This document shows positions 2,741-47,963 of a DNA stretch of 64,000 bases, in pieces. The stretch's first letter is position 1. Each line of letters opens with the position of its first letter. The DNA is taken from contig JAJEKV010000019.1 of NCBI GenBank assembly GCA_021234155.1, positions 6,090,284 to 6,154,283 on the forward strand, given 5' to 3'. The position numbers and the translations under genes are program-made. This DNA is from Isoetes taiwanensis (taxonomy: Eukaryota; Streptophyta; Lycopodiopsida; Isoetales; Isoetaceae). Under the pieces are notes generated by a model. It was not told where the DNA came from. It did no database searches and was given only the letters and a program-made list of their open reading frames with translations.

Positions 2741-5480
2741 ATGTTGAGAATCTCAACGTTGGTTTAGCTAAAATGCAGAGTCTTTGGAAAGGATGTAGGT
2801 TTGTGGAGCCTTTGAGCAATGTGATGGAAATTCCTAATCCATTTTTAGTAGTAGCCTTGTGAGTACCATAGCGAGGATTTGCTACTATGTTAGAGCAAAG
2901 GCCATAGTTAGAGATGTTGGCACCCCGATGTTGTTCTGATCATGGGTAGTGTGGCGCGGGGTTCTTCCACACTAAGAATGCTCGTTTGCGGTAGGTAGCC
3001 ATTAGGAATACTTTGTCATTAATGTTGCGAGTATGTCCAAAGCTAGAGCATTAGTTGAAAAAATGTAAGTTTATTACTTTCTTTCTTCTTCTCAAAGTTA
3101 AGTCTTACTTGTTTGTATGCATTATTCCACGGGAAAATCTTTAGGGCTAGAATCATAGCAAGGGTTTAAATGTGAAGTTGGGTCTCGTCTGATGGTTCAT
3201 GCATAAACGTTAAATTTCGTTAATTCTATTAGTGTTTTCTTGTCATTCTATTGGTAAGGTTTTGTTTATTCTATTTTAGGAATATTGGGAGATTTAGAAT
3301 CTACCTAGGAGACTTGGAAGCTAACGGAGAAACTTGGAGGTTTGGGCATGACATGGTACACATATTTATAGAGTTGAGATTTTTTGAAGTTGGAGACTTG
3401 GAGATGGCAGTCAAATTTGGAGTTGGAGATTTTAAAAGTTTACGTGGGACATCAAACATGGATCTGTTTAAATCGAAGTTCACATGGGAAAACTTGGTAC
3501 TTTGGAAGTTTACATGAAAAACTTTGGGAAATCAAAACTTTGGATCTAAATTTTTTTCTCTTTATGCATTGCCAAGCTTCGCTTATTTGTATAAAGCTTG
3601 GGATCTAATTTCTTATATATGTAAACTTCAGAATTTTCTTATTTGTGTAAACTTCAGAAACATGCAAATATGAATGCAAAAAAAAAAAAAAGGGTCTTAG
3701 AGCACCATTGTGGCAATTTCACGGGCTAAAGCATTTGGAATTGAAACACATCGGCCTAAAATAATCCAAAGACAAATTTCATGACCCAAATACCATATTG
3801 CTAAGTGTAAAGGTAGTGGTCATGGCAGCATCAATTTTGCATGGTGTCACTTTTTAGATATACTTTACGGATTTGGTAAATATCGGTGACTTGATATGCG
3901 TTTAAGAACGCATGCTTCAAACTCCTTCATAAAGTTCTCTCAATTACCACTCATTGGTTCCGATCTCTTTTCTCAGTTCTTTACTTTACATTACTTTATA
4001 ATAAACATCCCGACTGCAGAGTTATACTATAGGTAGTACCGCCGAAAATGATAATTAAGTGCTCATAAAAGGGAGTCGGCGGCTTGGGGTTTAGCAAGAT
4101 AAATTCAAACTGAGGGGCATAATCCGATTTACATTTAGCAGGTTTCTTAATTTGGAAAATCATCAGCGGTGCGGGTAGAATTATATGAATCTTGAGATCT
4201 ATTGGGTAATGATAGTAGTTATATCTTGAGATACAAGACGACTAATTGATAGAGGATTCCTAATATTCTGCATAAATACGTCATGCGAATATTTGAGGGA
4301 GGCTCTAGTTTCTGTATTGCCTCTCCTAAGTATTTGGCATAAGAACTTCCATCTAGTATATGCCACAAATCTATGTGCAAGATACTACAAAACCAAGTAA
4401 TAGAACACAAGATATCCACCAAAAGAATCAAGAGAGCTATACTTCAGTATAAGAGAGTGCGAGGAAAACCCAGGGAAACTGAAGCGAAATGGCGGAGAAC
4501 TAGCTATACATAGGGAATACGTATCTTGGTTATGCAGTACTGAGATACTAAGCGAAACTAGGGCTTCAAAAAAATGCCCAAAAAAATCAAGAAATTATAC
4601 AAAATACATGAATATACATGGCCTTTTTAGAAGCTGTGAAGCCTTTTGATTTGTTGTTTAGTAATATCAAAACGAATTATGTTCATATCTTTCAAATCTC
4701 TAATATCATTTGTTCGAAAAGTGGCATCTTGTACGACTGCCACATGGTGCAATGCACAATTGAGTTCATGCAATAAGGTGCTAGATGGCCGATGGTTGTA
4801 CAGACCATTCCTCTTCAACGCCAGTCATGGGCTTCTTTTGTGTCTAGATCCTGCTCATGATTTCATCAACAGTCTCGAGCCTTCTTGTTCGTATTCCCTT
4901 CTTCTTGATTTGCATTTTGGGCCCTGAAGATATTCTTTTGACTTGTAATTATTCGACTGGAAGTATATGATATAACTCAAAGTATTTGTATTTCTCATGC
5001 ATTATTCTTGTATTCTGCTCATATGCTCGTGATAGTTTACCATTATGTAAATCTTCCGGGGTAGAGATTTCCATCAAGTAAAAGTGCATTCTTAAAATTA
5101 AAAACTAGTACCCATATTGAGTGCGAAAGCTCTGATTACAGGTATTCCACAAAGAGTTACTAAATTAAGCGCTGTTTTCGGAGCCTTATCAATTCCACCA
5201 GAGGTGTATCCCAAAGGGAAGCAGTACTTAAAGGGTTAAAAGAAAGGGGATGGCACTGGAAACTAAACAGATATAGTAAAATTTCGCAATTGGCAAATTG
5301 ATGCGGAAAGCGAGGCAGGTAAGAAATCCCGATTTTTAAAATCGAGCATCTTTATGTCGGAGAGTGCGGATTTAACTGCGCCAAGATTATTGGATCTGTA
5401 GAGTGGATTATTTTGTAGATCCCCATGAAGATTGCGTACCTCCAGCTTATATATATGATGACATACATCAGCATAGCGAT
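2740..5480. other. Intergenic stretch, no recognised gene
   Basis: No protein family is recognised on either strand. A loosely repeated GGAGACTTGGA-like word occurs at about 3290-3520, and an A-run lies at 3678-3691. A 93-codon frame at 4646-4927 and its antisense frame at 4627-4818 match nothing I know. Confidence 0.45.
3678..3691 (+). repeat. A14 homopolymer
   Basis: Fourteen consecutive A residues. It could be the poly(A) remnant of a retroposed sequence to its left, but no retroelement reading frame is recognisable directly upstream. Confidence 0.6.
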
Positions 5481-5483
5481 TGA

Positions 5484-8160
5484 GGCGATGTCATACTACT
5501 TGGGAACTTCAATGCATGCACGGGTAGGAACAACCCATGAGATTTGATCCCTTGGTGATGATGTAGCCGGGTGCATGCTGCGAAGAGGCAGCCCACGGAC
5601 ATCGAATGACAATGGTCACGCACTATGGTAGCGATTGCTTTTGATTTTATTGTGGTGTCTTTGACTGTGTCTGCAATGGGCTGGCATAGTGGCGTTCACA
5701 CTTAAAAGAGCACTTGTAGAGCGAGGAGAAAACCATGGGGAGGATCTAGTGTGGTGGTGCCATGCGTGCTTTGAAGCATGATATGCATGTCGTTAAGCAC
5801 TTCCAGGTGGGAACGGCTAATAAGGATGAAAAGAAGACCGATTCAGGACCACTTACCACTTTAATTAAGGGGTGGCAGTTATCTGAGCGATATGGGAACT
5901 CCTCACATGCCTCAATGCGCAGGGTGGGATTATGAACATGCACAGGGCTTATGCTTTGGTCTTGCGAAGATGATCGGCGGGGAATTTGCAATATCACCAC
6001 ACTAGAGCAACATCTGAGGGCGGCTTACTGATGTGCTTAGAGCGTAAGCGAAGATGCTTTGGGATAAGGCGCGTGTGGCCTCGAAACACAACTTTCCACG
6101 TAATCGATGGTTTAATCACGGTCACGGGAACACAAATCTTTGGTACGCAGTCCGCAGAACCCCTACTACACCCACATGCGGTGGAATCGCTGCGTCTTCC
6201 GCCCAAAGCTAAAGAAAACGGATACATTGCAGCATCAAAGGGAAAAAATTTACCTCTGAAATCACCCGGGGACATACGAAGGGGTTTGCCGAGAAAACCC
6301 GATAGATTCGCGGGGAACATCACTTGCGGCGGTGGAGGCAATACTTTACAGCGACTATCACGACCCTCGGGGTGCACATGCGGCGGCTACTCCACGCAGC
6401 GAAGGGTCCGGTGCTGAAATCACGGTCGGATGTGGAACAAGGCTTACAGCGTCTTGCCAATGAAAGCGTTTGGATTGTATGCGGTATGCAAAAGTGGCCG
6501 AGCATCCATGGCCGCAAGCCGATAGCGCCTGTTCCCAGCCGAAGGCATTTATAGAAAGAGCTTTAACTAGGTGGGGCCAGCCAAGGATTGTTTTATCTAT
6601 AAGGCACGGGGTGTGACACTTCCCTTGACCCAAATTACAGGCAATCATAGTGATTCGGTGTTTACCAAAGCGCCCTGGCTGGATTCTCGAGCAGGGATTG
6701 ATATAGAGCTGGCGAGAGAAGGCGGCCAGATGTCGCGGAGCCCTCACCCGAGGCGAGGATTCCGGACCAGAGCGCGCGCCTCAACCATTGGCCACATTTT
6801 TCCGCGTTCGCGAACTCTGGTTGAAGACAGGGCACCGCCGGGATCTATATTGTGCTTTGTAGGATTTTGCGAAGTTTGACAACTGTGCCTCAGGAAGAAA
6901 ACTATAGGCAACATTACAGCGAGCTGGGGGGTTCTGTGGAATTTGCACAATCGCGATATCTGAGGCTATATAGAAGATGCTGGGTCGGTTGCAGTAGGCA
7001 AACCAACAAGCTGAAGTAGTAGTATTAGGGTTCTCGGGGATGCCCTCTCTCCCAACATTGTTTGGGCTTTTACATTGATCAATTGGAGAGTGATTTGCCA
7101 ATAATGCAGAGCCGAGGCTCACTTTGCGGGTCATCATGCGTTCAATATATGGCGTAATGTGGACCTCTAAGCTTACACACCAGCGGGGCAGCCGCGACAT
7201 CTCGATGCCACGGACACATTTTGCCAAGCCCGGCGTCTGGCCCGTCCGGCTGGCCCAGACTAAGGTGGTTCTCACGCGTAATCCCTCCGCGTGCGGTAGG
7301 ATCCCCTCCCAGCCGATTCACAGAAGCGAGAATGTGGAAGTGGCATCATACAAATATGTGGGAGTGGAGTTTCCTTCTACTATGGCTACAGTGGCTTGGC
7401 GGGGAAGGCACTATATGCAATGCAAAACAAAGAGTCATAAACTGAGGGGAATTTGCTTGATTGGGCGTAGTCACACGTTTCCGAATCTTAGTGGGCTTGT
7501 CCTTTTACTCACGAGGTTGATATAGGGGCCCAATAGTATCATACAGCTACAGGGCCAGCTTAAAACGAGGTCTGAAGCCTTCCTTTGATGCAACTGAAAG
7601 GTCCACAGTCCCATATCAAATTCTACATGAGGGAGGCGGGATTCTTGCCTGCTAGAGGCGCGGTGCCCGCAAGCGTATTTTCAGGTGGTCAATATGGACG
7701 TGCCATCTCCGTAGCGTGGCTTATAGCATGGCAATGGGGGTACACTTGTGCGCCTCAAGCCTGGCTGGAGGAAAGAGAGCTCAATGGTTGACTAGATGGG
7801 TGTGGGAACCTGAGGTGCATGTGCAAACAGGGAGGCGTGTAGAGGCAAATATCTTGGCGGCTTGCTTCCGCCCAGCGAGCTTTCTTATGAAGCAGTCAAG
7901 ACGGCACTGCGGGTCGACCAAATCCCATTTGGGCAGGGCCGCCTGTTGCCTACATGCGTGCCCACTTGCCTATGAAAGCCTTGAGACTCATTGCCTCCGA
8001 CCGCGCAGGGGGCACACTATGCTTGGCGGAGTGAGACAGGCGGAATGGATTGGTGAGCCACGCCGGAGACGGGGATTGCCAAATGGGAGTGGATTGAGAT
8101 GAATCTCATACCACTCATTTGCCCATCACTTTGAGTGTCCAGGACCAGCTATCTTTGGTG
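5484..8160 (+). mobile_element. Degenerate LINE: endonuclease + reverse transcriptase
   Basis: This is a non-LTR retrotransposon body. The endonuclease shows GDVILLGNFNACTGR at 5484, where autonomous members have GDFNAR, so the catalytic Asp is Asn here. Its C-terminal part is near 5792 (VKHFQVG, then TDSGPL where SDHxPL is expected, so the catalytic His is lost). Reverse-transcriptase blocks follow in order: DPNYR near 6630, a QAGFR-like RRGFRTRA and HIFPRSRTLVEDR at about 6740-6830, CFVGF in place of the catalytic CFVDF at about 6855, then AQTKVVLTRN (about 7255) and SYKYVGVEF (about 7350). The tail keeps VPYQIL (about 7610), RQAEWIGEPR (about 8035) and HFECP (8127). Frames change repeatedly and stops are frequent, so it is dead. 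The tract is clearly richer in GC than its flanks. The family style is one I associate with algae, mosses and other non-flowering plants. Confidence 0.8.
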
Positions 8161-9720: not shown

Positions 9721-11121
9721 TCAGGTGTATTACCAAGCAATGGAAGCTGCAAAAATCTCAGGTTGCAAAATGCGTCCGTTTGGAGATTAGCATTCAAGGA
9801 AACATGCTTGGTTTGTATGCCAAGCTCTTGGGACAACTCCTCGCTGGCTGCTATTCGTAAAGGGCCGAGGTTCAGATTATCCATTATTGTATCCTCGTCT
9901 TTGGAGGTGAGGCTGCCCTGTAATCTTTTCAATTGTTAGTTTTTGTGCAAGTGACGGCTCTTTCAAAGCAAAATTTTTCATAAAATCACATATTGCTTAT
10001 AAACTGTTATTGATTTATAGGAAGGCAGAACCTGTCCCCAACCAGGTAATGCCTCCCTCATTTCTCCATTTTTGTTGGTTATCTGCACAATGAACATTTT
10101 TCATCGTCGTTAAGCCTCTCTGGAATTATGACCGACACTAGTCATCAAAGTCAATATGAGTGTTTCTAATGTAGTTTAATGTCGCCCCTGACTCAGATCT
10201 TCTTTCATGAACTGAAAAATCTAAGCCAAAGAAATAATAATCTAAGAATAAGTTTGCTGGCCCTTGATATGTTATTTTCTGCAATAATATTTGCATAATC
10301 TGTTGGGACATATTTACAGGCACATGTAGGAACAACGCACGCAACTCATGTTAGTTTATATAGTTGGGTGCTAAGTTTGTTCTCTGCCCTAAAACAAATT
10401 GGTCTTTGCTTATGATGAAGAGTCTCATTTTCTGGTAATATATTGTTTTTTACAGGTTTAAAAACGACAAAAGTGAAATTTGTATTGCAAAAGGAATGTA
10501 GCTTTGGCCAGAGTTTCAACGTAGTGGGTGATACACCGGAATTAGGTGCATGGGAAGCATCCTCAGGCATACCTATGACATGGTCTGATGGCCATATATG
10601 GACTGTAGACTTAGTACGTCCATGCCTGCTTTTTTCATTTCAAAGATGCTAGATCAATGATCAAATGCACTGATTGGGAATTTTTTATTGGGTCAGGACT
10701 TGCCACAAGGTAAAAGGTTCGAATACAAGTTTTTACTTAGAGATCCACATACAGTTGAATGGCAGCCAGGCCCAAATTGGGTATTTATAACCCATAATAA
10801 TTTATACTCCTTGACGGTTTCACAGTCTTGGGATTTTGATGAATCCTCAAATTAAAAAACACAGGTCATCCCCGAGGAAGAAGACCACCTTGATTCATCA
10901 GGTGATATTTGCTAGAGGAGGAAAGAGGTAAGCCACTTTGGAACCCTACAGTTTGGAAGGTCAATATAGTTTGGATGAATCTGCCCACTACTCTGCTATG
11001 GAGAATATGGAAGACACTAAAGTTTTAGCATTAGAGGTAAGGATTTTCAGGATTGAGAATGAAGATTTTTCTTAAGGCATTTATAATCTGCATCATAATG
11101 TTTTCTCCTTTCCATTAACAG

Positions 11122-11472
11122 GTACAGTGTAACTTAATCAACCATGATTTAAACATCCATGACAAATTGGCCTCTTCCATTGTGCAGGATGAGACACTAG
11201 ATCAAGAAAAATCATCAAAGGTCAAATACATTGAAGAGGAGACTGTTTCTAAGACAAGAGAGGGATCGAAAAATGTTGAGGATATTAGCAGACCGCCTCA
11301 ATCTTTATTACAAAAGAATATCACTCGAAGTGTGAAATTTGTATTGCAAAAGGAATGTAGCTTTGGCCAGAATTTTAGCGTCGTGGGTGATACTCCAGAA
11401 CTAGGTGCATGGGAAACATCCTCAGGGGTACCTATGACATGGTCTGATGGCCATATATGGAGTGTAGACTTA
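11122..11472 (+). CDS. CBM20 module 2, fused linker + first CBM20 exon (copy A)
   Basis: This is an open phase-0 exon of 117 codons, bounded by TTAACAG and GTAAGT. Its first ~70 residues are an acidic linker (DETLDQE, KYIEEET) that in copy B occurs only in the last exon. It then runs straight into the CBM20 start (KFVLQKECSFGQNF, LGAWE, SDGHIW). The carbohydrate-binding tryptophans are present. The exon belongs to a gene whose upstream part is broken, so translation in vivo is doubtful. Confidence 0.6.
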
Positions 11473-11556
11473 GTAAGTTCCATGCCTATGTTTTTCATTT
11501 TAGAGATTGCTAGGTCAATGGATAAATGCACTGATTATGAATTTTTATTGGCTCAG

Positions 11557-11874
11557 GAATTGCCACGAGGTAAAAGGATCGAATACAAGTTTTTACTTAT
11601 TAAAGGTCCACATACAGTTGAATGGCAGCAGGGCCCAAATCGTGTGTTTATAACCCATAATAATTTATACTCCTTGACAGTTTCACAGCCTTGGGATTTT
11701 GATGAATACGCAGATTTAAGAACACAGGTCATCCCCCAGGAAGAAGACCACCTTGATTCATCAAATGGAAATGTTACAATAGGGGAGGAAGAATTATGCA
11801 GTCATAGTTTGGATGAATCTGCCCACTACTCTGATATAGAGAATATGGAAGACACTAAAGTTTTAGCACTAGAC
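11557..11874 (+). CDS. CBM20 module 2, second exon (copy A)
   Basis: Open phase-0 exon of 106 codons, from GGCTCAG to GTAAGG. It holds the second half of the CBM20 fold (RIEYKFLLIKG, VEWQQGPNRVF) and an acidic tail with ENMEDTKVLALD. The 84-bp intron before it happens to be readable in frame, so exon 11122-11472, this intron and this exon form one long open frame. Intron retention would therefore not truncate the module. Confidence 0.6.
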
Positions 11875-11958
11875 GTAAGGATTTTCAGGATTGAGAATGG
11901 AGATTTTTTTTAAGGTTTTTATAATCTGCATGATAATATTTCTCCTTTCCATCAACAG

Positions 11959-12384
11959 GTATGCTGTAACTTATCCAACCGTGAAATTCAGGAGCAATTA
12001 AAGCTTGGTATTCAACAAGAAGATGTCGTCACAAGCTCTACTACAAGTGAGACGACATTTTTAAACATCCACGGCAAATTGGCCTCGTCCATCGTGCAGG
12101 ATGAGACATTAGATCAAGAAGAATCATCAAAGGTCAAATACATTGAAGAGGAGACTGTTTCTAAGACAAGAGAGGGATCGAAAAGTATTGAGGATATAAG
12201 CAGCCCGCCTCAATCTTTATTACAAAAGAATATAGCTCGGAGTGTGAAATTTGTATTGCAAAAGGAATGTAGCTTTGGCCAGCATTTCAGCGTAGTGGGT
12301 GATACTCCAGAACTAGGTGCATGGGAAGCATCCTCAGGCATACCTATGACATGGTCTGACGGCCATATATGGAGTGTAGACTTA
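11959..12384 (+). CDS. CBM20 module 3, fused linker + first CBM20 exon (copy A)
   Basis: Open phase-0 exon of 142 codons. Compared with the module 2 exon it keeps a longer linker (IQEQLKLGIQQEDVVTS). The remainder is nearly identical, including the fusion of the linker ending SLLQKN to the CBM20 start and the LGAWE and SDGHIW motifs. It ends in a GTAAGT donor. Confidence 0.6.
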
Positions 12385-12465
12385 GTAAGTTCCATGCTTC
12401 ATGAAACATTTCAGGAAGTTGCTAGGTCGAAGTAGAACACTGATTGTGAATTTTTATTGGCTCAG

Positions 12466-12819
12466 GAATTGCCACAAGGTAAAAGGTTCGAATACAAGTT
12501 TTTACTTATTAGAAATCCACACACAGTTGAATGGCAGCCAGGCCCAAATCGTGTGTTTATAACCCGTAATGATTCATATTCCCTGACAGTTTCGCAGTCT
12601 TGGGATTTTGATGAATACGCAGATTTAAAAACACAGGTCATTCCCCAGGAAGAAGACCACCTTGATTCATCGGATGGAAATGTTGCTATAGGGGAGGAAG
12701 AATTATGCAGTACACAGAGTTTGGAAGGTCAATTTAGTTTGGATGAATCTGCTCACTGCTCTGATATGGAGAATATGGAAGACACTAATATGGAGGACAC
12801 TACAGTTTTAGCATTAGAG
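12466..12819 (+). CDS. CBM20 module 3, second exon (copy A)
   Basis: Open phase-0 exon of 118 codons. It carries FEYKFLLIRN, VEWQPGPNRVF and an acidic tail in which NMEDT is duplicated. The donor is GTAGGG, weaker than the GTAAGG used at the same place in module 2. The intron before it contains an in-frame stop, so splicing is needed here. Confidence 0.6.
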
Positions 12820-12903
12820 GTAGGGATTTTCAGGATTGAGAATGAATATTTTTCCAAAGGTTTTTATAATCTGCATGATAATGTTTCTCCTTTCCATTAA
12901 CAG

Positions 12904-13257
12904 GTACAGTGTAACTCATCCAACCATGACATTCAGGAGCAATTAAAGCTTGGTATTCAACAAGATGTCATCACAAGCTCTACTACAGGGGAGACAAGGT
13001 TGTTAGGCATCCATGACAAATTGGCCTCTTCCGTCGTGCAGGATGAGACATTAGATCAAGAAGAATCATCCTCTGCCTCAAAGATGAAATACATTGAAGA
13101 GGAGATTGTTTCTAAGACAAGAGAGGGATCGAAAATTGTTGAGGATATTAGCAGCCTGCCTCAATCCTTATTACAAAAGGATATAGCTTGGAGTGTGAAG
13201 GCACTATCTAATCTTTTGGGAAATTTTGGGCTTTTGAAGATTGATGAAAAGTCCTGA
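12904..13257 (+). CDS. CBM20 copy A terminal exon
   Basis: Open exon from the TTAACAG acceptor to a TGA at 13255. It encodes the acidic linker and a C-terminal helix KALSNLLGNFGLLKIDEKS. Copy B continues for four more residues because it has TCA where this copy has TGA. Confidence 0.6.
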   Translation, partial: VQCNSSNHDIQEQLKLGIQQDVITSSTTGETRLLGIHDKLASSVVQDETLDQEESSSASKMKYIEEEIVSKTREGSKIVEDISSLPQSLLQKDIAWSVKALSNLLGNFGLLKIDEKS

Positions 13258-13840
13258 AGGAATGGCTAGTTTCTGATAGAAGGAAATCGGGTCTGTATTC
13301 TGTGGTTAACGCTAAAACAGAGCAGCGGTCTCCTCTTATCAGGTTGTTCTTCCATTCTTTGGTTAACTGTAATATGTATACTATGTATGCATGAGAATGA
13401 TAAAAGCAATCAAGTTGTGGGTGCGAGAATGTCAAAGCCTTTAATCTTGAATCACCACATGAGCTGTATTTGCTTGAAAATACACACATATCAAACTAAT
13501 AGATTGTGAGGCTGGCAACACAAGAGACGTTCCTGCCATAGACGCCCTCATTCGACAACTTGCCACAGCCTTTTTTAAGCAGCCCCCTTTCGATGGCCCC
13601 ACTGTGTTTATGCTCGAACTATGTGATCCAGAGATCCAGGCACAAGACTTTGGGCAAACCCTAGACTCTGTTTGCACCATCCTATATATGAGAAAAGGAT
13701 ATGAGTCAAATCTAGAAATATAAATAGGCACAGGAAGAAAAGGCATATGACAATAGAATGGAACTTCTGCACGTAAATGCAGATTATGATTCACATGATG
13801 TAGCATGAAAAGAAGATATAGCATCTGAAGAAGAAGAAGC

Positions 13841-17599: not shown

Positions 17600-19350
17600 G
17601 TCTACCTTTTATTTAGAAATTTCTCGAGTTTTCTCACTCCATAGGTGGCTGACATTACATCTAATTGCATAAAGGGATACCTAGGATCTTTGGGGCGTGC
17701 TTGGGGAGTTGCTCTGCCCATCCCATTTTGTTGGCCATCTGCTCCCCTTTTACCTGATTCTTAAGCGGATGGCCGATTTTGCGGATTAGATGCTGTCGAG
17801 GCTTCTCCAAGAAATGAGTGAGAATCTGTGAGTATTGGAAATTAGATTTTTACATCAGAGATTAGGATGAAATTAATCATCTTCAAAGTACCCATTAGGA
17901 TTTGATGCAGAGGTTGCTCGGGGAAGACTTAGCTACTAATGAGGGTTTGATATTTTTGGCTCCCTCCATCTTACCACGGAGGGCCTCCATAACAATCAAG
18001 AATAAGACAGGGGCTAGAGAGGACAACCTTGTTTGACCCCTCTTTGGAAAGCAAAGAAAGGGCTACATTCTCTATTGATGAGGACAGCAGATCACGAATT
18101 ATGAAGGATACCCTTGATAATTTGAATGCTTTCACTGTTGAACCCCAAAGCTCTGCAACATTTAAACAGAAACTGCCAACTTACTGTGTCAAAGGCTTTA
18201 GTTATATCCAGCTTGAGAAGGGCAACATCCTGATTAGAGTCCTTTGCCCACTGGAGCCCCAGGATAGCTGTAACCACATTGTCCAAGATAAACCTGTCCT
18301 TTAAGCAGATTGAGAGCTGCTAATTATAGTATTCAAGATCGATTTCAGCCTCGAAGCAATAGCTCCTGAGATAATCTTGTAGATAATATTAGAAAGAGAG
18401 ATTGGTCTGTAATCAGAGAAGGTAGTAAGGCAGTCAATTTTAGGAATAAGAGCAATAAAACTTGTATTAATTCTTGCATCCAAAATCTTTTTTTCTCTGA
18501 ACTCATTAGCAAGATTTGTGATACACTCCCCTAATACTGGCCAAGTCTTTTTAAAGAATTCTGCTGGAGGGCCATCTGGTCCAGGGGTCTTACCATTTTC
18601 CATCTCCTTACCTATCTGCCAAAGCTCACCATTAACAAACGGCTTGGAAAAGTTTAGATTATTCTCGTTATTAACCCTCATATTGAGATTAATAAATTGG
18701 TCCATGATCGTAGGATCAGAATCCATATTGGTGCCCATCATCCTGGAAAGTGATCTGCTGCAGCCTGTTTTAGTCCCCTATCATCTGATATCAAATTATC
18801 TTCAACTTTGACTTCATGAATATGATTTCTGTTCACCCTGAATTTGGCTTTTATAAAGAAGTACTTAGAGTTGGCTCTTTCATCTTCCTTCAGTTCTTTG
18901 ACTTTGGCCTTAAGCTTCCAACCATTTGCAATTTTAATCTCTTCTTTTTCTATTTGCATTCTAATGTTCTTTTTCTGATCATCTGAAGCATGACAGAGGC
19001 TATACTTTAGGTTGTCTAGATGGGCTCTACTCTGATAGAATAAACTCTTACCCAATGAGTCATGATAGGAGTAGACATTAGTAAAAGCAATTCTGCAGGA
19101 ATCAATTTTATCTACCATAATTTGCCACCTTCCATTAGCATCATTGACCATATAAACGTCTTCCAATCCCACCTTATGGCACCAGGCTATGGCTATACCT
19201 GCAGAAGAGTTGTTAGCTTTGATAGACCAGACTTTATAGTTTGGAGAAAGGACGCCCAAACTGATCCTTTCATGATTAGGATCATGAAGCTTATGTTCCT
19301 GAATAAAAAAGATGTCAGGGAGAAGAGAGGACAAGCAAACCTTTAAACGA
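17600..19350 (-). mobile_element. Degenerate L1-type LINE, endonuclease and reverse transcriptase
   Basis: Read on the minus strand from 19334: the start of an endonuclease domain (PDIFFIQEHKLHD, then GRWQIMVD, IAFTNVYSYHD), which jumps directly into the connector (LKEDERANSKYFFIKAKFR). The reverse transcriptase follows: GKTPGPDGPPAEFFKKTWP, then ALIPKID, DYRPISLSNIIYKI (about 18400), LKLDITKAFDTVSW (about 18210) and GVKQGCPL (18017-18040). A one-base shift after GCPL changes frame to PVLFLIVMEALRG. A block like LGIPLY follows near 17680. The YADD box is not seen. About half of the endonuclease domain is missing without breaking the frame. At least two frameshifts and several stops make it non-autonomous. 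Confidence 0.85.
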
Positions 19351-21200
19351 TTCCTCTTGATATCAAGTAATCATAGTAATAGACTTATTCATTTAAAATA
19401 TGTTTTTACCTGCATCCATCCTCGATTGGATGGCTAACTCTCGGGCCGACTCAGGTGGGCGAAATAGCTTTTAGTTTTGGCCTCGCGCGCTTTGAATTTA
19501 ACTGCTTTACGCGCCATCAGTCTTCTTCACTTTGAGAGGATTCTTCATCTTCAATTTTCTGATACTTTTATACTCTCAAGGCCGTCAGCTCCGATTGTTA
19601 GGAAAATTACAAAAGCATAGAAAGGGTATTAGTCCGCATAATTTTCATAGAAAGATTAGCTTTATTATGTGAGAATCCACCCATCAATGCTTAAATTTGG
19701 TATGATCTATAGATCTGGTTTCAATCATATTGTCACTAAGATTATTAAACCATCATCCAATTAAATTGGGATTATGTCAACTCCAAAATCACTAACCTCG
19801 CTATATTGTCTTCTAGGGTTTTGTTTTTTTAATCTTTTTTGACTTCGTACAATATAAGGTTGTGATTCACGTGACGCTCCATATGTAATTGAAATATGCA
19901 AAATGAAGGAGCAAAAGTTGCTAACATAGTATTTATGCAGGCAATTCCGCATCAAACATTTATTACATGGTACAAAATATTTCGCTACAAAAATATTATA
20001 TATTCCAATAAAAACATTAAGGGATCAACTACTTTTCCACGATTTAACAAGGTGTGGTTCCATGTCGCTCTTATCCAGCTTCGGGTACGACCCAACACCC
20101 ACCGCCATCCCCATAGCCAAATTCATGCATAATAGACACAACTTCACCGTAGTGTTCATCCGCTCAAGTTTTATCGTGAAGATGGTATCCAAAATCGCGT
20201 TTCGGGATTTGTGGTAGCCACTTTGAGAGAGCATCATCATCCACTATGATTATGGTCATCCTTATTCTATACCAAGTTCGCCCATCATGTTACTCAAGTG
20301 TTTGATGAAGATAGGCTTGCCCGCGGATCCCCTTGGGATTAGTGAACTTCACACATTTGTACCTGGATCCCAAAAGGTCAACCAATGTCTATGCATTTCC
20401 CCAAAGTGCTCCAAAGTATTCCTTGATGTTCCTTAGTTCCATGGATGACCAAATACCAACCTCAAATAACTAATGTGCCTCATCTAGCATCTCTGTAAGT
20501 GCGGCCGGATAGATCCTACTGGTGCTTGATTCTACTCGTGTCTCATGAAACCGTTTCTCTAGCCACTATTTCTTTCTCGAAAAGTCTTGCAAAGGACTCA
20601 TTTTAGGTCTAACACCACAACCTTCTTAGAAACGCAATGGTGCTTCTAAAGATCAAAACATGTGTATCCCATTAAAGATACTATAACACAAACATTGATA
20701 AACGCTACTAAGCGATTCTTTGGAAATAGTCATGGACCAAATTATGCCGCATAAGTAGATTTAGGTTTTAATGTAAATCTAAAAAACAATCAAAAGATCA
20801 GCTTTGGGCTGATGCAATCTTCACAAAAGGCAAATACAAATTAAATCATACCTACCATTCAGCCACGTCATTACTTCCGCCATTCTCCCTTCACACCCTT
20901 AATCTTCAAGGCTCTTCTTCTCCGACTCATAGAATTGTTTATTCTGGCTTAGTCTCCTACCAAGGCCCTTCATTAATCACATTATTCTTTTACTATTGAT
21001 TCGGCAAAAACCTGCGAATCACTTAGAGTCAGCCAAGGTTCTTCATTTTCTGCTTTCCCCACAATTAGTTCATCATAACCCGCGGAATCTACTCTATCGC
21101 TGTTGCATCACCCGCACGTGGGCAAAAATAGGCTCCCCAAGTTCGCCGCCATCACAAGATTTTGAGCGCCAGCTTAGCAGCCTATTTGTTCATTACCGCC
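19350..21200. other. Intergenic stretch, nothing recognised
   Basis: Frames on both strands are short and match no family I know. Sequence character is AT-rich, becoming more GC-rich to the right. Confidence 0.4.
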
Positions 21201-29737: not shown

Positions 29738-30391
29738 TCACCGATTTTTTATCTCTTCCTTCTTTGCCTCGTTCTCTCCCTTAATACTGTTTTTGGACAT
29801 CTTAGAGTACTCAATTCGGAGATTAAAGACTGCATGTTCAAGCAACTTTACTTTAACTTCTCCTTTCCAACCCGCATTTATCCTCTTGGAAATACAAACT
29901 GAAGGGAAATTAGTCTGAGAAATGTTAACACCAATAATCTCCCCTAAGGTTTCCAAGATGGCTTGAAGATGAGAATAAGTCCAAAGCCCAAGGGGCAAGT
30001 TCGGGAAAGTAATCCATGTGAAGGTCGAGATCACACTAAAATTACCCGGGATATATGAAGGAATCCACTTCATGATATAGAAATCATAACCATTGAAAGT
30101 ATTTAACTTCTTTCTGAGAATAGTGTCCACACTGCCAGCTTCTCTACATAAGATTTCGAAGGTTCTGCTATCCATCTTGAGAATGGAAAGGATGGGGATC
30201 TTATGGTTTCTGGTAATCCAGAATTTAACTTCACCCAGAGATGGGCATTTGCCCGAAAAATGGATAAGAATACCTTTTCTGGAATATATGTCAAAGGCAG
30301 AGGAGTCCTTAACACCAAAGAGGTCAATAATCTCATTTCTCTTGTTACTCTTGTCCAGATTATTATCAATGAAGGGATAGAAACCTGATTA
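29738..30391 (-). CDS. LINE ORF1 fragment, DUF4283-type
   Basis: A single minus-strand frame of about 217 codons is open from just after a TAA near 30392. It matches the DUF4283 region of plant LINE ORF1 proteins, which precedes a CCHC zinc knuckle in full-length elements and is thought to bind element RNA. Recognisable blocks are FNGYDFYIMKWIPSY, then FTWITFPNLPLGLW and LQAILETLGEIIGVN. This corresponds to the family pattern of a Trp-rich strand, IWVRxPxLPLxxW, and LxxIGxxLG. No zinc knuckle or downstream endonuclease was found, so this is an isolated fragment. The open frame suggests it is younger than the LINE at 18 kb. Confidence 0.75.
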
Positions 30392-41867: not shown

Positions 41868-43020
41868 ACAAGCTTCAACGTAGATAAAATGCCAAAACGG
41901 AGTCCGATGCATAAATTATATCAAAAAGTATTTTGCCTCCTCGAAGTTTCTCCAAATTGGGTCAACAATTTGAGCCCAATTTATGAGCCCATCTCTATAA
42001 ATATATGTCAATAGTGTTCTATCAAAGCCCCCTCTCAACAAGCCTTAAACGAGATAAAAATGCCAAAAATCAAAAGTCTGAGGCAAAAGTTATGCCAAAA
42101 AATCTATTCGCCACCCCGAATCCCTTAAATTGGGCGCCCAATTTGAGCCCAATTTACGAGCCCATCTCTATAAATAGTATGTCACAGTGCCTCTATCAAA
42201 GCCCTCCTCAATAAGCTTTCTAACGAGATAAAAATACCAAAAATCTGAGTCCGAGGCAAAAGTTATGCTAAAAAATCTATTCTCCCGCCACCCCTAACCT
42301 TCTCTTAAATTAAGTGCCCGCCCAATTTGAGCCCAATTTACGCAGCCCATCTCTATAAATAGTATGCTTCATTAGTGTTCTATCAAAGTCAAGAAGCTTT
42401 TCCAACTATATAAAAATGCCAAAATTGGAGTCTGATGCAAAAAGTTATGCTAAAAAATCTATTCTCGCTAATCTCAGAATCCTCTAAATTAAGTGCCCGC
42501 CTAATTTGGATTCCAATTACGAGTCTATCTCCCTATATAAATAGTATGCTTCATTACCTCTATCAAAGCCTCCTTGAAGAAGCTTTCCAAATAAAAATGC
42601 CAAAATCTGAGTCCTGATGCAAAAGTTATGCTAAAAAATCTTCATTCTCGCCACCTCAGACCTCTAAATTAAGTGCCCGCCTCAATTTGTTAAATTTAAT
42701 ATTTAAGCCCACTTCTCTATAAATAGTATGCTCATTAGTACCTCTATCAAAGCCCCCAAAGAAGCTTTCCAACGTAGATAAAAAATGCCAAAATTGGAGT
42801 CTCTGATGTGAAAGTTATGCCAAAAATCTATTCTCGCCACCCCTAAGCCCTTAATTGGGCCAGCCTAATTTGAGCTAAATTTGGGGACTATTTGCATAAA
42901 CATTATGCCCGATAGATATTTTATCAAAGCTCGACAAGTTTTCATCCAGCTAAAGAACGGCCGCGAATGAGTCCGGATGCAAACGTCATGAAAGAACAAT
43001 CTATTCTCGCCAACCCGAAC
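41868..43020 (+). repeat. Satellite-like array, ~180-bp unit, about six copies
   Basis: The landmark CTCTATAAATA occurs near 41991, 42167, 42348, 42530 and 42713, with a decayed form near 42893. The spacing is therefore 177-183 bp. Other landmarks repeated in step are ATCAAAGC, GAAGCTTTCCAA, AAATGCCAAAA, GTC(T/C)GATGCAAAAGTTATG, CTATTCTCGCCACC and GCCCAATTTGAGCCCAATTT. Units differ by many small indels. The last one is the most divergent. The unit length is in the range of plant centromeric and heterochromatic satellites. Confidence 0.9.
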
Positions 43021-43699: not shown

Positions 43700-43740
43700 T
43701 TGTCATAGGAATTGGAACACGCACTTGTCATAGGAATTGG
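43700..43740. repeat. 25-bp tandem duplication at the recombinase 3' end
   Basis: TTGTCATAGGAATTGG begins at 43700 and again at 43725. The period is 25 bp with 1.6 copies. It covers the codons around the predicted catalytic Tyr of the recombinase and shifts the reading frame just after it. Confidence 0.85.
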
Positions 43741-44559
43741 GGTTCTTATGGCCCGTAATGCTCATCCCGACCTCCATTGGAACATTTACGGCTGATAAAC
43801 GAGAAATCAAAGACACGCGTCCGCTCTGATTACAGATTTGTATCTCAGGACCAATGACACGGGCCATGACTTTCAACCATTTGGATATGTTGTTCGTTCC
43901 GACAGGTGTAACAGCATACCAGACCTAAAAAAAGACATGCAATTGAATTAATATCACAAATAAAAGAAACTTACATAAGAAATGACTTACATTTTCCCTA
44001 GGCCACAAAATGGGCTAAAGAAATAATGCTCACTGAATCCTCGCCTTCCTTTATTTTCGTAAATGGCGACGCGGAGGTAAAAATTAAATCGACTCATATG
44101 CTCAAACAGTTTGTGGAAGAAGTGTTCATCAAACTTCTCAGAATCGAGGACATGGTTCTACTTCTATTTCCCCATACTTAATGATTTCACCACCCATATC
44201 AGTATCAAAACATGCATCAATCCAAAACGCAACTCCTTTGCTCCCCTAATCCCAAACCTCGTAGGCATATAATATGCTAAATGATTGATGCACCCTGACG
44301 GATGAGTTACTTGGTGATCTATATCAGCCAAGATCTCACGTTCTTCAACAAAGGTTATTGTTGAAGCCTTATTCATAGGTCTATCATAGTTTCCCTCCTC
44401 CCTTGTCTTTTTTATAGCACAAATAAAAGTCTCACGGCTGGTACTGAAAATCGGATTATGTAGAATCTCAAATGGTAGCCTCACGTATACCGCTTTCTCC
44501 CTAATTCTCTCCCTCTCCATTCTCATTATTCTACTAATTCCACTAACAAACAACTTAAC
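43703..44559 (-). pseudogene. Crypton/DUF3504-like tyrosine recombinase, two visible exons
   Basis: Exon A runs from a TTTTTTTAG acceptor at 44560 to a GTAAGT donor at 43990. Exon B starts at 43924 after TTTTTTTAG and ends at a TGA at 43703. Exon A carries KASTITFVEEREILADI, then HPSGCINHLAYYM and FGIRGAKELRFG, matching the first catalytic Arg box of DUF3504-type tyrosine recombinases. A one-base shift leads into DTDMGGEIIKYGE, and another into EKFDEHFFHKLFEHMSRF. Near the donor, one frame reads PRENV and continues across the intron as VWYAVTPVGTNNISKW. Exon B continues with NQSGRVSLISRLSAVNVP (the HxxR box, with Gln where His is usual) and SITGHKNPNSYDKC (the GH box and catalytic Tyr). The family cuts and joins DNA through a Tyr-DNA intermediate. 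Three or more frameshifts and a stop indicate decay, or assembly errors. The N-terminal core-binding domain was not found. Confidence 0.75.
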
Positions 44560-46200
44560 CTAAAAAAAACAAAAACAAAAATATAAAAATTTCCAACCAA
44601 GAAATATTACATAATCCACGTTACTTCGCATTGCCGGGCGATAACGCTTTTGTTTTTCTTCTTACCTCGCAATGAAGATACAAAGAAATAACACATATTA
44701 GTATTTTTTCATATTAAATAAATGTAATTACAAATTATGTCAAATAAAAAAGAAAATATTCGCGAACATGAATCGCTACAGAGTCTATCTAACGCGGCAA
44801 GACGTAATCTTCTCTCGTTTTAACAAAAACATCATGATTGGAATGCCTTTCTCCACTCATCGACCCCGCCTCTTTGGCCCACTTGTTTCACCCTGAACGC
44901 TCAAGGCCCACCGCATAAAGCATCAAATAGTATACGGGCTGCCGGATTCCAATCATCTCGAGAAGCCGCCTTCATCCTCATCACATCTCCAAAGACAAAG
45001 TTCTCGGGCCAAGATTTGCTCCCGCTCTTCGCATCATGAACTCAAGTAGGAACTCGGCGCATCGTAAGTATCATAAATCGCCTTTGCTACTAAATTAAAC
45101 GATGGTTCTCACATTTCGCCATTCTCAATTTAACAAACACAACTATAAAAATGTCGAAAAGTGCGATATCATTCCCTCCACCGCTAGAATGTTGCGTAAC
45201 CCGCAAATACCATGTGTCGAAATGTTTATGCCTCAAATTACGCCTTAACAAGTCTAGCAAGTCCAACAAGCCTTATCTAATCTAGCAAGCCTTATCTAAT
45301 CAAACACTGTTCTTACCTAACAAAACTTCCTGCAGATACACTTCAATTAGTGGCTAGTGGCTTATCAAGACATCTCAGTTGCAAATGATCTTCAGTTATA
45401 ACAATTCACTGACATGCAAGAACAACAACAAGTAACAGTGATACCTGAATGAAATATGAAGATTAGGGACCTATAAAAACATTACTCTAAGTAAAACAAG
45501 AACACAACTAAAAAAAATCGTTCAAGAAAGTACTTAACCCGAAATCTAGAAGAAGTATACCCGTACCAAAATGTAAATTTGACCAAAAACACTAAAAAAT
45601 CAATTCGAACATCGAAGAACAAGGCGAAATGCACTTAAAACTCGACTCCGAAACACAAGAACAAAGAAAAATATTAACCCAAAGAACAAAAACAAAAACC
45701 ACAGCTACGAGATGAAGCCTCACCTACCGATCTCCACAAATAAGAATGCCCCTCTCTCAAGGCCCGATCACACCTCCTGCCCAAAATGAAAAACAGAGGT
45801 GCCGGGAAGGAAAGGGGGGAAGAATGCTACGCCAAAATTTTCTTAAAACTCTCGCTTACCGCCACCTAATCGGAAATTCTTCCAATACGCATCCCCGAAA
45901 GCAGTAAGTTTATTACGTTTGATATTTTCAGGCGGTCGGGATTCCGCCGTCCCTACTGGAAATTATTATCAAACATATTAGTAATGAATGGCTACTCTCC
46001 TCATTTCATGTTCAATGCTTTATCTTCCAAATGTATACTCATCAAAAAGGATAATAACGGGCATATAGAAAAGGGATGGATTTGTCACGAAAATAGAAGG
46101 CAAGGAAATTTATTGTCCCCATTTTTTATGAGCGGAAACAGGGAAGGGAGGGAACTACCTGTTTTTTCCCAGAACTTCGTCCCATTGCAGTGACGAATGG
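44560..46200. other. Region upstream of the recombinase, no recognised gene
   Basis: An earlier recombinase exon would be expected here on the minus strand but none could be shown. A short minus-strand frame near 44985-44920 (MKAASRDDWNPAARILFDAL) is protein-like and could be such a piece. A 19-bp near-tandem word (AAGCCTTATCTAATC twice) lies at 45268-45301. Confidence 0.3.
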
Positions 46201-46234: not shown

Positions 46235-46362
46235 ACACCCAGATGATATATTTTATTGTTTTTTATTACGGACACATGCATGAACAAAGTTGTGGCGTTT
46301 TAAGTACATCCCTTGTTTCCAGGTGTGTTACTACAAATTTGGTGCAGAAACTGTACTGAAAA

Positions 46363-47919
46363 ATGCGTCCGTCGGTAGACAGCATTCCGAAAGAAACATG
46401 CTTGGTTTCTATGCCAAGCTTTTGGGGCAACTCCTCGCCAACTAGATTCAGATTTTCCATTATTGGGTCCTCGTCCTTGGAGGTGAGGCTGGCCTATAAT
46501 CTTTTCAATTGTTAATTTTCGTGCAAGTGATGGCTCTTTCAAAGCAAAATTTTTCATAAAATCAGGGTTTTAGACAGATTGCTTACAAACTGTTATGGAT
46601 TTATAGGATAGCAGAGCCTGTCCCCAACCAGGTAATGCCTCCTTCCCTTTTTGTTGGTTATCTGCACAATGAACATTTTTCATCATCCTTAAGCCTATTC
46701 AATGTTATTGTTTGAACCCTGGAATTATGACCGCATGAGTTATCAAAGTTAATATGAGTGTCTCTAATGTAGTTTCCAATCATATAATCTCGACCCTGAC
46801 TGAGATTTTCTTTCATAAACTGCAAAATCTAAGCCAAAAAAATGATTTAAGAATCATGTTGTTAGTTTATATAGTTGAGTGCTAAGTTTATTCTCTGCCT
46901 TAAAACAGATTGGCCTTTGCTTATGACGAATAGTCTCATTTTCTGGTAAATATTTTTTTTACAGGTTTAAAAACGACAAAAGTGAAATTTATATTGCAAA
47001 AGGAATGTAGCTTTGGCCAGAGTTTCAGCGTTGTAGGTGGTACTCCAGAATTAGGTGCATGGGAAGCATGCTCAGCCGTACCTATGACATGGTCTGATGG
47101 CCACATATGGAGTGTAGAATTAGTAAGTTCCATGCCTACGTTTCTCATTTCGGAGATTGCTAGGGCAATACTGATTGTGAAGTTTCATTGGCTCAGGAAT
47201 TGCCACAAGGTAAAAGATTCGACTACAAGTTTGTACTTATTAGAGATCCACATACAGTTGAATGGCAGCCAGGCCCAAATCGCGTGTTTATAACCCATAA
47301 TAATTTATACTCCTTGACAGTTTCACAGTCTTGGGATTTTGATGAATACGCAAATTTAAAAACACAGGTCATCCCCGAGGAAGAAGACCGCCTTGATTCA
47401 TCAAATGGAAATGTTGCTATAGGGGAGGAAGAATTATGCAGTACACAAAGTTTGGAAGATCAATCTAGCTTGGATGAATCTGCCCACTACTCTGATATGG
47501 AGAATATGGAAGACACTAAAGTTTTAGCATTAGAGGTAAGGATTTTCAGGATTGAGAATGAAGATCTTTTTACAAGGCCTCAAATCTGCATGATGTTTCG
47601 CTTACCAATGTAAATAACAGTATGAAAACATGATTCAAACCATGAAATTCAGGAGCAATTAAATCTTGGTATTCAACAAGAAGATGTCGTCACAAGCTCT
47701 ACCACAAGGGAGGATGAGACATTAGATCAAGAAGAGTCATCCTCTGCCTCAAAGGTCAAATACATTGAAGAAGAGACTGGATCTAAAAATGTTGAGAATA
47801 TTAGCAGCCCACAATCTTTATTACAAAAGGATATAGCTTGGAGTGTGAAGGCATTATCTAATCTTTTAGGAAGTTTTGGGCTTTTGAAGTTTGATGAAAA
47901 GTCCTCAAGGCATGGCTAG
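46363..47919 (+). CDS. Plastid-type CBM20 starch-binding protein, copy B, five exons
   Basis: The proposed exons are 46363-46482, 46607-46631, 46965-47122, 47197-47535 and 47653-47919. All phases agree, giving 302 residues from an ATG with an in-frame TGA two codons upstream to a TAG. Residues 1-48 are rich in Ser and Arg (SFWGNSSPTRFRFS), like a chloroplast transit peptide. Residues about 54-145 form one CBM20 domain: KFILQKECSFG, LGAWE (Trp81), SDGHIW (Trp97), FDYKFVLIRD and VEWQPGPNR (Trp124). These are the aromatic sites that grip starch-type glucans. An acidic linker and the helix KALSNLLGSFGLLKF follow. There is no catalytic domain, so a role in binding starch or recruiting partners is inferred. 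The 25-bp microexon is conserved in copy A. The last exon uses an AG about 20 bp downstream of the copy A acceptor, because the equivalent site would shift the frame. Confidence 0.75.
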
Positions 47920-47957
47920 TGTCTGATAGAAGGAAATCGGGTCTGTTTTCTATGCTT

Positions 47958-47963
47958 AATAAA
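47958..47963 (+). terminator. Polyadenylation signal of CBM20 copy B
   Basis: AATAAA lies 39 bp after the stop codon. Copy A has lost it at the matching place. Confidence 0.55.

Follow-up and report, generated by a model that had tools for sequence, protein, structure and literature searches.

The window, by which we mean the whole 64,000-nucleotide stretch of Isoetes taiwanensis DNA that was analysed, carries on its minus strand a 5' fragment of a repeated element. In blastn searches and DNA alignments to the complete element L015 and its relatives, this copy extends from about 45973 to 43723, where the similarity ends, with 2251 bp left of approximately 3.6 kb; the alignment to L015 shows that the last third, with exons 5 and 6 and the 3' terminus, is missing. 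The copy proved longer than a previous sequence-only reading of this DNA had stated, with its 5' end directly after TATG (45974–45977), a target core whose position equals that of the TTAYG-like core of other copies. A degenerate 5' inverted site of the recombinase type (CGTAAT..., 45888–45917) was placed by by-eye alignment with L015 2332–2357, a strict match being absent. It is followed by a remnant of exon 1 with approximate edges (44757–45118), encoding an acidic N terminus and a WA..RF.EWRKAF region in broken frames, which was located by tblastn of L015 exon 1 together with DNA alignment, and by a remnant of micro-exon 2, also of approximate edges (44625–44668; VKKKNNKLYPPAT in L015), recognised by DNA alignment. 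Reading frames, relatives and DNA alignment delimited a frameshifted exon 3 (43991–44562), with box I (FGIRGAKEL) and the region after it. A 66-bp GT-AG intron (43925–43990), apparent in the sequence and in the DNA alignment, separates it from exon 4 (43725–43924, from frames and relatives), which contains VWYAVTPVG, box II (NQSGR; NKSGR in the family) and box III (TGH). The order of four boxes that had been claimed for the minus strand was confirmed in two translated pieces, P0001 (44559–44167, minus), containing FGIRGAKELR, and P0003 (43924–43706, minus), containing VWYAVTPVG, NQSGRVSLISRL and ITGHKNPNSYDKC; the intron had likewise been recognised correctly, and its homologue in L015 is also 66 bp long (4435–4500). 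The copy had been suspected of being dead on account of frameshifts, and the DNA alignment to L015, to which it is about 75% identical, displays both frameshifts and stops. A tandem repeat with a 182-bp unit (41966–42882) lies downstream, on the element's broken 3' side.

Elsewhere in the window, repeated pieces of a starch-binding (CBM_20) gene, 78–87% alike, flank the element on both sides (9764–13309 and 46357–47959, plus strand). Retroelement remains at 18304–19370 and 29741–30388 on the minus strand comprise a DUF4283 domain and a weak reverse transcriptase match that stays below cut-off (E 0.001). The region 6000–8000, with a GC content of up to 0.525 and overlapping open frames, is possibly organelle-derived DNA. 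No Rfam family reached its gathering score within the window. What we read as a second, more decayed recombinase relic occupies 1245–2700 on the plus strand, with profile matches in the frames at 1518 and 2377 (E 0.001 and 0.007) and a tblastn match (E 0.002) inside it at 1693–1827.

The Isoetes taiwanensis assembly (1,658,258,908 bases in 1110 contigs) was searched for relatives of P0003, and 150 places including P0003 itself were retrieved with E values from 4e-44 to 5e-14. Because all 150 places scored, out of 969 first-look candidates, matched at such values, the similarity is far beyond chance and the family has at least 150 loci. A tree composed solely of copies of this genome, 42 plus an outgroup, resolved many subfamilies with good support, 23 of its 40 inner branches being starred, and grouped the window copy with L015, L016, L017 and L043 (99/97) on a long branch. 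Eight of 39 loci (L044, L062, L065, L070, L072, L076, L079 and L080) were excluded from the tree, as were L013, L014b, L018 and L021. Many copies bear stops. Repeats in close order, 92–93% alike, were also seen, with two copies about 5.3 kb apart in L011 and a partial duplicate in L013.

Candidates for the live relatives whose search had been proposed exist in the same genome, where copies with an open gene share the intron of the window copy. In L015, a frame of 573 codons runs to the final stop across six exons (3310–3666, 3747–3784, 3846–4434, 4501–4700, 4771–4874 and 5053–5486) separated by GT-AG introns. No start codon was found, and a further coding exon upstream of exon 1 is likely. The exon matches of L019, L016 and L020 are also 66 bp apart, corresponding to the same intron, and other subfamilies differ in its length (84 bp in L046, for example). 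In L009 (3977–4705, minus), a single open frame fuses exons 3 and 4, with the intron missing and exon 4 shortened by its four initial residues. The C-terminal exon was matched in 9 of 15 copies compared and has no Pfam match. Complete elements of 3583 and 3611 bp carry a single recombinase gene, and the longest frame outside the exons of that gene in L015, on the minus strand, has 108 codons. The gene is under strong purifying selection between subfamilies, as evidenced by a dN/dS of 0.048 for exon 3 of L015 versus L019, at a dS of about 2.2 that is near saturation. Close pairs gave values of 0.52 (L015/L016) and 0.42 (L019/L020) for the same exon, a weaker constraint that would be expected of copies in decay after insertion.

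The sequence-only reading had assigned the locus to a Crypton/DUF3504-type tyrosine recombinase and proposed a search with DUF3504 and phage-integrase-type HMM profiles as a check. The window pieces alone gave nothing relevant in a Pfam scan, DUF3504 included, but a link could be established through their relatives. DUF3504 was the top Pfam family in six of the ten copies scanned, namely L015 (E 0.0029), L014 (E 0.022) and four of seven further exon-joined copies, L046, L055, L061 and L069 (E values across the four of 2.1e-5, 9e-5, 0.015 and 0.032). It was not matched in the remaining four, L009 (up to E 10) and L045, L075 and L078 (up to E 1), and no scanned family member exceeded the DUF3504 cut-off of 29.7 bits, the best score being 25.1. 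Just upstream of DUF3504, weak matches to QRICH1 were observed in L015 (E 0.22) and in the N-terminal part of L014 (E 0.088), a model of a neighbouring domain in animal DUF3504 proteins; the N-terminal part of L023 had no match in the Pfam scan. One of the seven exon-joined copies also matched Phage_integrase (E 0.045), a family placed in the same superfamily as DUF3504 (excerpt of PMC8371274).

A genome search with PF12012 identified two places above the cut-off, L022 (C31:87500–93500) and L023 (C606:40500–46500), and none in 14 control genomes. Both belong to a second recombinase family and have an FNFSF stretch near the C terminus; box II of L023 contains Lys (NKTLRHYAVTR). When an HMM of nine members of the first family was run against 1804 frames, which included the rest of the window as a control, it matched five L022/L023 open frames collinearly (E 4e-9 to 5e-4), and the only other matches better than 0.01 were the window frames at 1518 and 2377. 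With DUF3504 as top family in six of ten copies and a sister family above the cut-off, the presence of such a recombinase in a plant genome is supported, and the gene can be predicted to encode a tyrosine recombinase of the DUF3504 branch. Structural models were poor and lent no fold support: for the open frame of 243 residues in L009, AlphaFold yielded two models with pLDDT of 47.6 and 52.9, and a Foldseek search with the second of them gave 117 matches at E 10 or better, none at 0.001 and with no recombinase among the best 50 of the 117. The two PDB sequences that matched the profile at E 10 are not recombinases; the L009 frame matched NCBIfam at noise level only; and scans of viral and prokaryote contigs produced 25 and 53 pattern matches, among which no relative was confirmed. 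The Pfam scan of the 573-residue L015 product showed no GCR1_C match and no reverse transcriptase or RNase H domain.

Active-site residues were compared among copies. Box II reads NKSGR in 44 of 54 copies, and at its His position Lys is present in 52 of the 54, Gln only in the window copy and Glu in L064, which rejects the suggestion that Gln characterises the HxxR box of the family. The box I Arg is found in 40 of 41 copies with a readable pattern (11 more have exon 3 with the pattern unreadable), the box II Arg in 50 of 54 and the box III His in 53 of 54. A Tyr nine residues after the box III His occurs in all 46 copies whose exon-5 match begins at residue 1, a count that is biased by this choice. 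This Tyr is the first residue of the next exon (SYDK/YDR, the slash marking the exon border), which is absent from the window copy, and L023 has a Tyr at the same place and none at +6. Because the +9 Tyr opens the next exon, and given the arrangement in L023, the catalytic Tyr is probably that of SYDK/YDR in the exon missing from the window copy; the Tyr of NSYDK, which had been put forward as the candidate in the window copy, is probably not the catalytic one. Of the Crypton-type signature R...HxxR...H...Y, the R, R, H and Y are mostly kept and the box II His is not. A Lys likewise occupies the His position of box II in archaeal integrases of the SSV1 type (R...KXXR...Y; excerpt of PMC8371274), which serves as a precedent only.

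The element starts with TATTAGATAA and ends with ATTACG. Near the 5' end, in a position that is not terminal, lies a 26–27-bp site (CGTAATCACCACTTGCCGGGATTACG in L019) whose inverted, imperfect partner makes up the 3' end, and by eye the two sites largely covary between subfamilies. In the site, an 8-bp spacer separates inverted arms of 9 bp each, which is the layout of a recombinase binding site. The stretch that leads from the 5' end to the inner site contains a hairpin, with z-scores from −5.8 to −11.1 in five long versions that were picked for their length, and the hairpin takes a shortened form in L015, L024–L027 and L036. The distant L014 subfamily has a different start sequence, yet shows a similar hairpin and inverted ends of its own.

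Insertion sites of the element share a short target core. Across 19 left flanks, the five terminal bases mostly resemble TTAYG, with T in 14, T in 16, A in 16 and G in 18 of the 19 at positions −5, −4, −3 and −1, respectively. The left flank agrees with the 3' end of the element at a mean of 3.9 of 6 bases, as compared with 1.6 elsewhere in the flanks, and none of 100,000 resamplings gave a value as high. L016, whose 5' and 3' ends are without the motifs, was left out of the flank count, and L018 is without the usual 3' end. Twelve further left ends, of which L130 and L131 have a common flank, were inspected: nine agree in their start and three have no recognisable one. Empty sites were represented by six paralogous sequences for each of L025, L027 and L030 (18 of 118 rows listed), and all 18, for these three insertions, are uninterrupted and indicate no target duplication. 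No bases were lost at the junctions of L025 and L027; the filled site of L030 lacks 6 bp, five bases to the left of the junction, that are present in all six of its empty sites. Agreement of the target core with the element end is perfect in L025 (ATTACG) and imperfect in the other two (ATTATG, TTCAAG).

The fate of the core was followed at both sides of the element. In ten copies with both ends, nine of them informative, the left core is that of the target and the right core is ATTACG. Sixteen right ends had earlier been chosen with a pattern that tolerated one or two mismatches, and for this reason 20 right ends, taken from the 40 in a BLAST list, constitute a fairer test, although the rows are partly non-independent, L111 and L113 having a common flank and L102 sharing one with L037. 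Seventeen of the 20 end in ATTACG and L104 is unclear; L117 and L119 differ in the last base, where mutation and exchange of that base are indistinguishable. Neither TTATG nor TTAAG occurs among the 20, though 23 of 28 left cores have a non-C base at the corresponding position.

The family also contains traces of movement. Over 1074 of 1074 bp there is no difference between L024 and L025, which lie on the same contig at a distance of about 96 kb and point in opposite directions; their flanks show no better alignment than the flanks of other pairs do. Deletion derivatives of 746 bp and of about 1.0–1.2 kb have both ends in common; the 746-bp L026 is an internal deletion of an L019-like element, to which it is 96–98% identical. 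Some copies keep an open gene, or are alike to a degree that implies recent movement. L014 contains a head-to-tail dimer, 96.8% identical over 3.7 kb, with the junction TTTACG/ATGGAGG, which looks like a circle junction, as would result if a circle had integrated at the 3' end of a copy already in place.

On this evidence, the window locus is very probably a fragment, now dead, of a Crypton-like DNA transposon in the genome of the lycophyte Isoetes taiwanensis. Tyrosine recombinases are likewise encoded by retrotransposons of the DIRS/Ngaro/PAT type, which are known from green plants, as Kangaroo of Volvox (excerpt of PMC4157794), and the element might be such a retrotransposon of which only the recombinase gene is visible. 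We regard this as very improbable: with a longest non-gene frame of only 108 codons (in L015), the complete elements of 3583 and 3611 bp could not accommodate a reverse transcriptase, the gene product has no such domain, and the short derivatives keep both ends. The 26–27-bp inverted sequences near both ends and the non-autonomous short copies would also fit the capture of a recombinase gene by a cut-and-paste DDE transposon bounded by terminal inverted repeats. This is highly unlikely in view of the lack of target duplication in all 18 empty sites of three insertions, the non-terminal position of the 5' inverted site, the absence of a transposase-length frame beside the gene in L015 and the strong purifying selection acting on the recombinase between subfamilies.

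That same selection could instead reflect a family of non-mobile host genes, domesticated recombinases of the DUF3504 type such as animals possess (excerpt of PMC3212892). The sequence-only reading had offered a domesticated recombinase as an alternative, but at least 150 loci with defined ends and empty sites rule out a single domesticated gene. For the copies examined, a host-gene origin is refuted by common ends, empty sites, derivatives, identical copies in unlike flanks and many stops, and for the locus we give it hardly any weight. Contamination with fungal or animal DNA would agree with the groups in which Cryptons are best known and with the non-axenic culture of the source plants (excerpt of PMC8566536); the location of copies on large scaffolds of up to 53 Mb, and of three copies in sequences repeated elsewhere in this genome, makes it the least credible of these explanations, with practically no probability left.

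For the Crypton-like transposon, a cycle can be proposed in which the recombinase would bind the two inverted 26–27-bp sites, one of them close to the 5' end and the other forming the 3' end, and, acting as the catalyst, excise the element as a circle. The circle would then insert right after a short core resembling its own 3' end, (T)TAYG, with no target duplication. Canonical tyrosine recombinases exchange strands over an overlap of 6–8 bp, and a double-strand exchange over an overlap of 5–6 bp should leave about every second insertion with the core of the target at its right side. Since the target core was never seen exchanged to the right end, a single crossover point is favoured; the data hint at it, and biased repair could give the same picture. 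By analogy with integron integrases, which use folded attC sites, strand exchange might be confined to one point and probably proceed on a single strand in folded form, an idea that we advance tentatively and hold to be rather unlikely as it stands. The variable-length hairpin would in that case bring the 5' end beside the inner recombinase site, the target core would stay on the left and the element's own core on the right. The resemblance to integron integrases with folded attC, which is an analogy only, comprises the single crossover point, the short target core and a structured end of variable hairpin length. If true, the element would represent a eukaryotic counterpart of structure-guided, single-strand tyrosine recombination.

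Compared with described Cryptons (CryptonA, I, F and S; excerpt of PMC3212892), the quillwort element is alike in having one DUF3504-related recombinase gene, a short terminal core that is alike in all copies, and non-autonomous derivatives. Its relation to DUF3504, the lack of a reverse transcriptase and the uniform short terminal repeat without random target duplication are features of the Crypton superfamily. It differs from Cryptons in having Lys for His in box II, and in its imperfect inverted sites and 5' hairpin, whereas animal Cryptons are without terminal repeats according to the same excerpt. The C-terminal exon present in 9 of 15 copies also sets it apart, since animal Crypton groups have no C-terminal domain and CryptonF has GCR1_C: the element lacks the GCR1_C of CryptonF and possesses both the C-terminal extension and the terminal repeats that are absent from CryptonA and CryptonI. 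Its host, a lycophyte, is also unlike those of the known Crypton groups. The animal DUF3504 genes (ZMYM2-4, QRICH1, KIAA1958 and KCTD1) resemble the quillwort copies in the best Pfam matches, to DUF3504 and weakly to QRICH1; however, these host genes have the domain without most catalytic residues (excerpt of PMC3212892), whereas the quillwort copies are mobile elements in which R, R, H and Y are for the most part retained. Several animal regulatory genes derive from Cryptons, according to the same source in excerpt.

Table 1 of Kojima and Jurka 2011 lists fungi, animals and stramenopiles as Crypton hosts, and no plants (excerpt of PMC3212892); CryptonV was added to the groups later (excerpt of PMC5753468). 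A 2015 survey names Crypton among the superfamilies in all groups studied, land plants included, without a description in the portion available (PMC4438587). The available portions of PMC8969392, PMC3537659 and PMC11630846 (Crypton with Selaginella) describe no plant Crypton, and no literature was found on Crypton together with Isoetes. The earlier suggestion of a lineage under-described in plants therefore holds insofar as no description of the lineage of the quillwort element was found in the literature searched, but not as regards the listing of Crypton in land plants by the survey. Because of that listing, Cryptons are taken here as a known kind whose quillwort lineage is apparently undescribed, and no first is claimed. 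Copy numbers of Cryptons are given as 'a few dozen' (excerpt of PMC4157794) or 'generally low' (excerpt of PMC8969392), as against at least 150 loci here, but in medaka the autonomous and non-autonomous copies number more than 2,700 (excerpt of PMC3212892). A direct reading of Crypton insertion sites was not met in the available text of the literature searched. The quillwort family, with at least 150 loci, an open gene, recent copies, derivatives and empty sites, provides a system for reading the target rule and the crossover point. It adds a documented lycophyte host, and its terminal sequences can be used to search other plant genomes.
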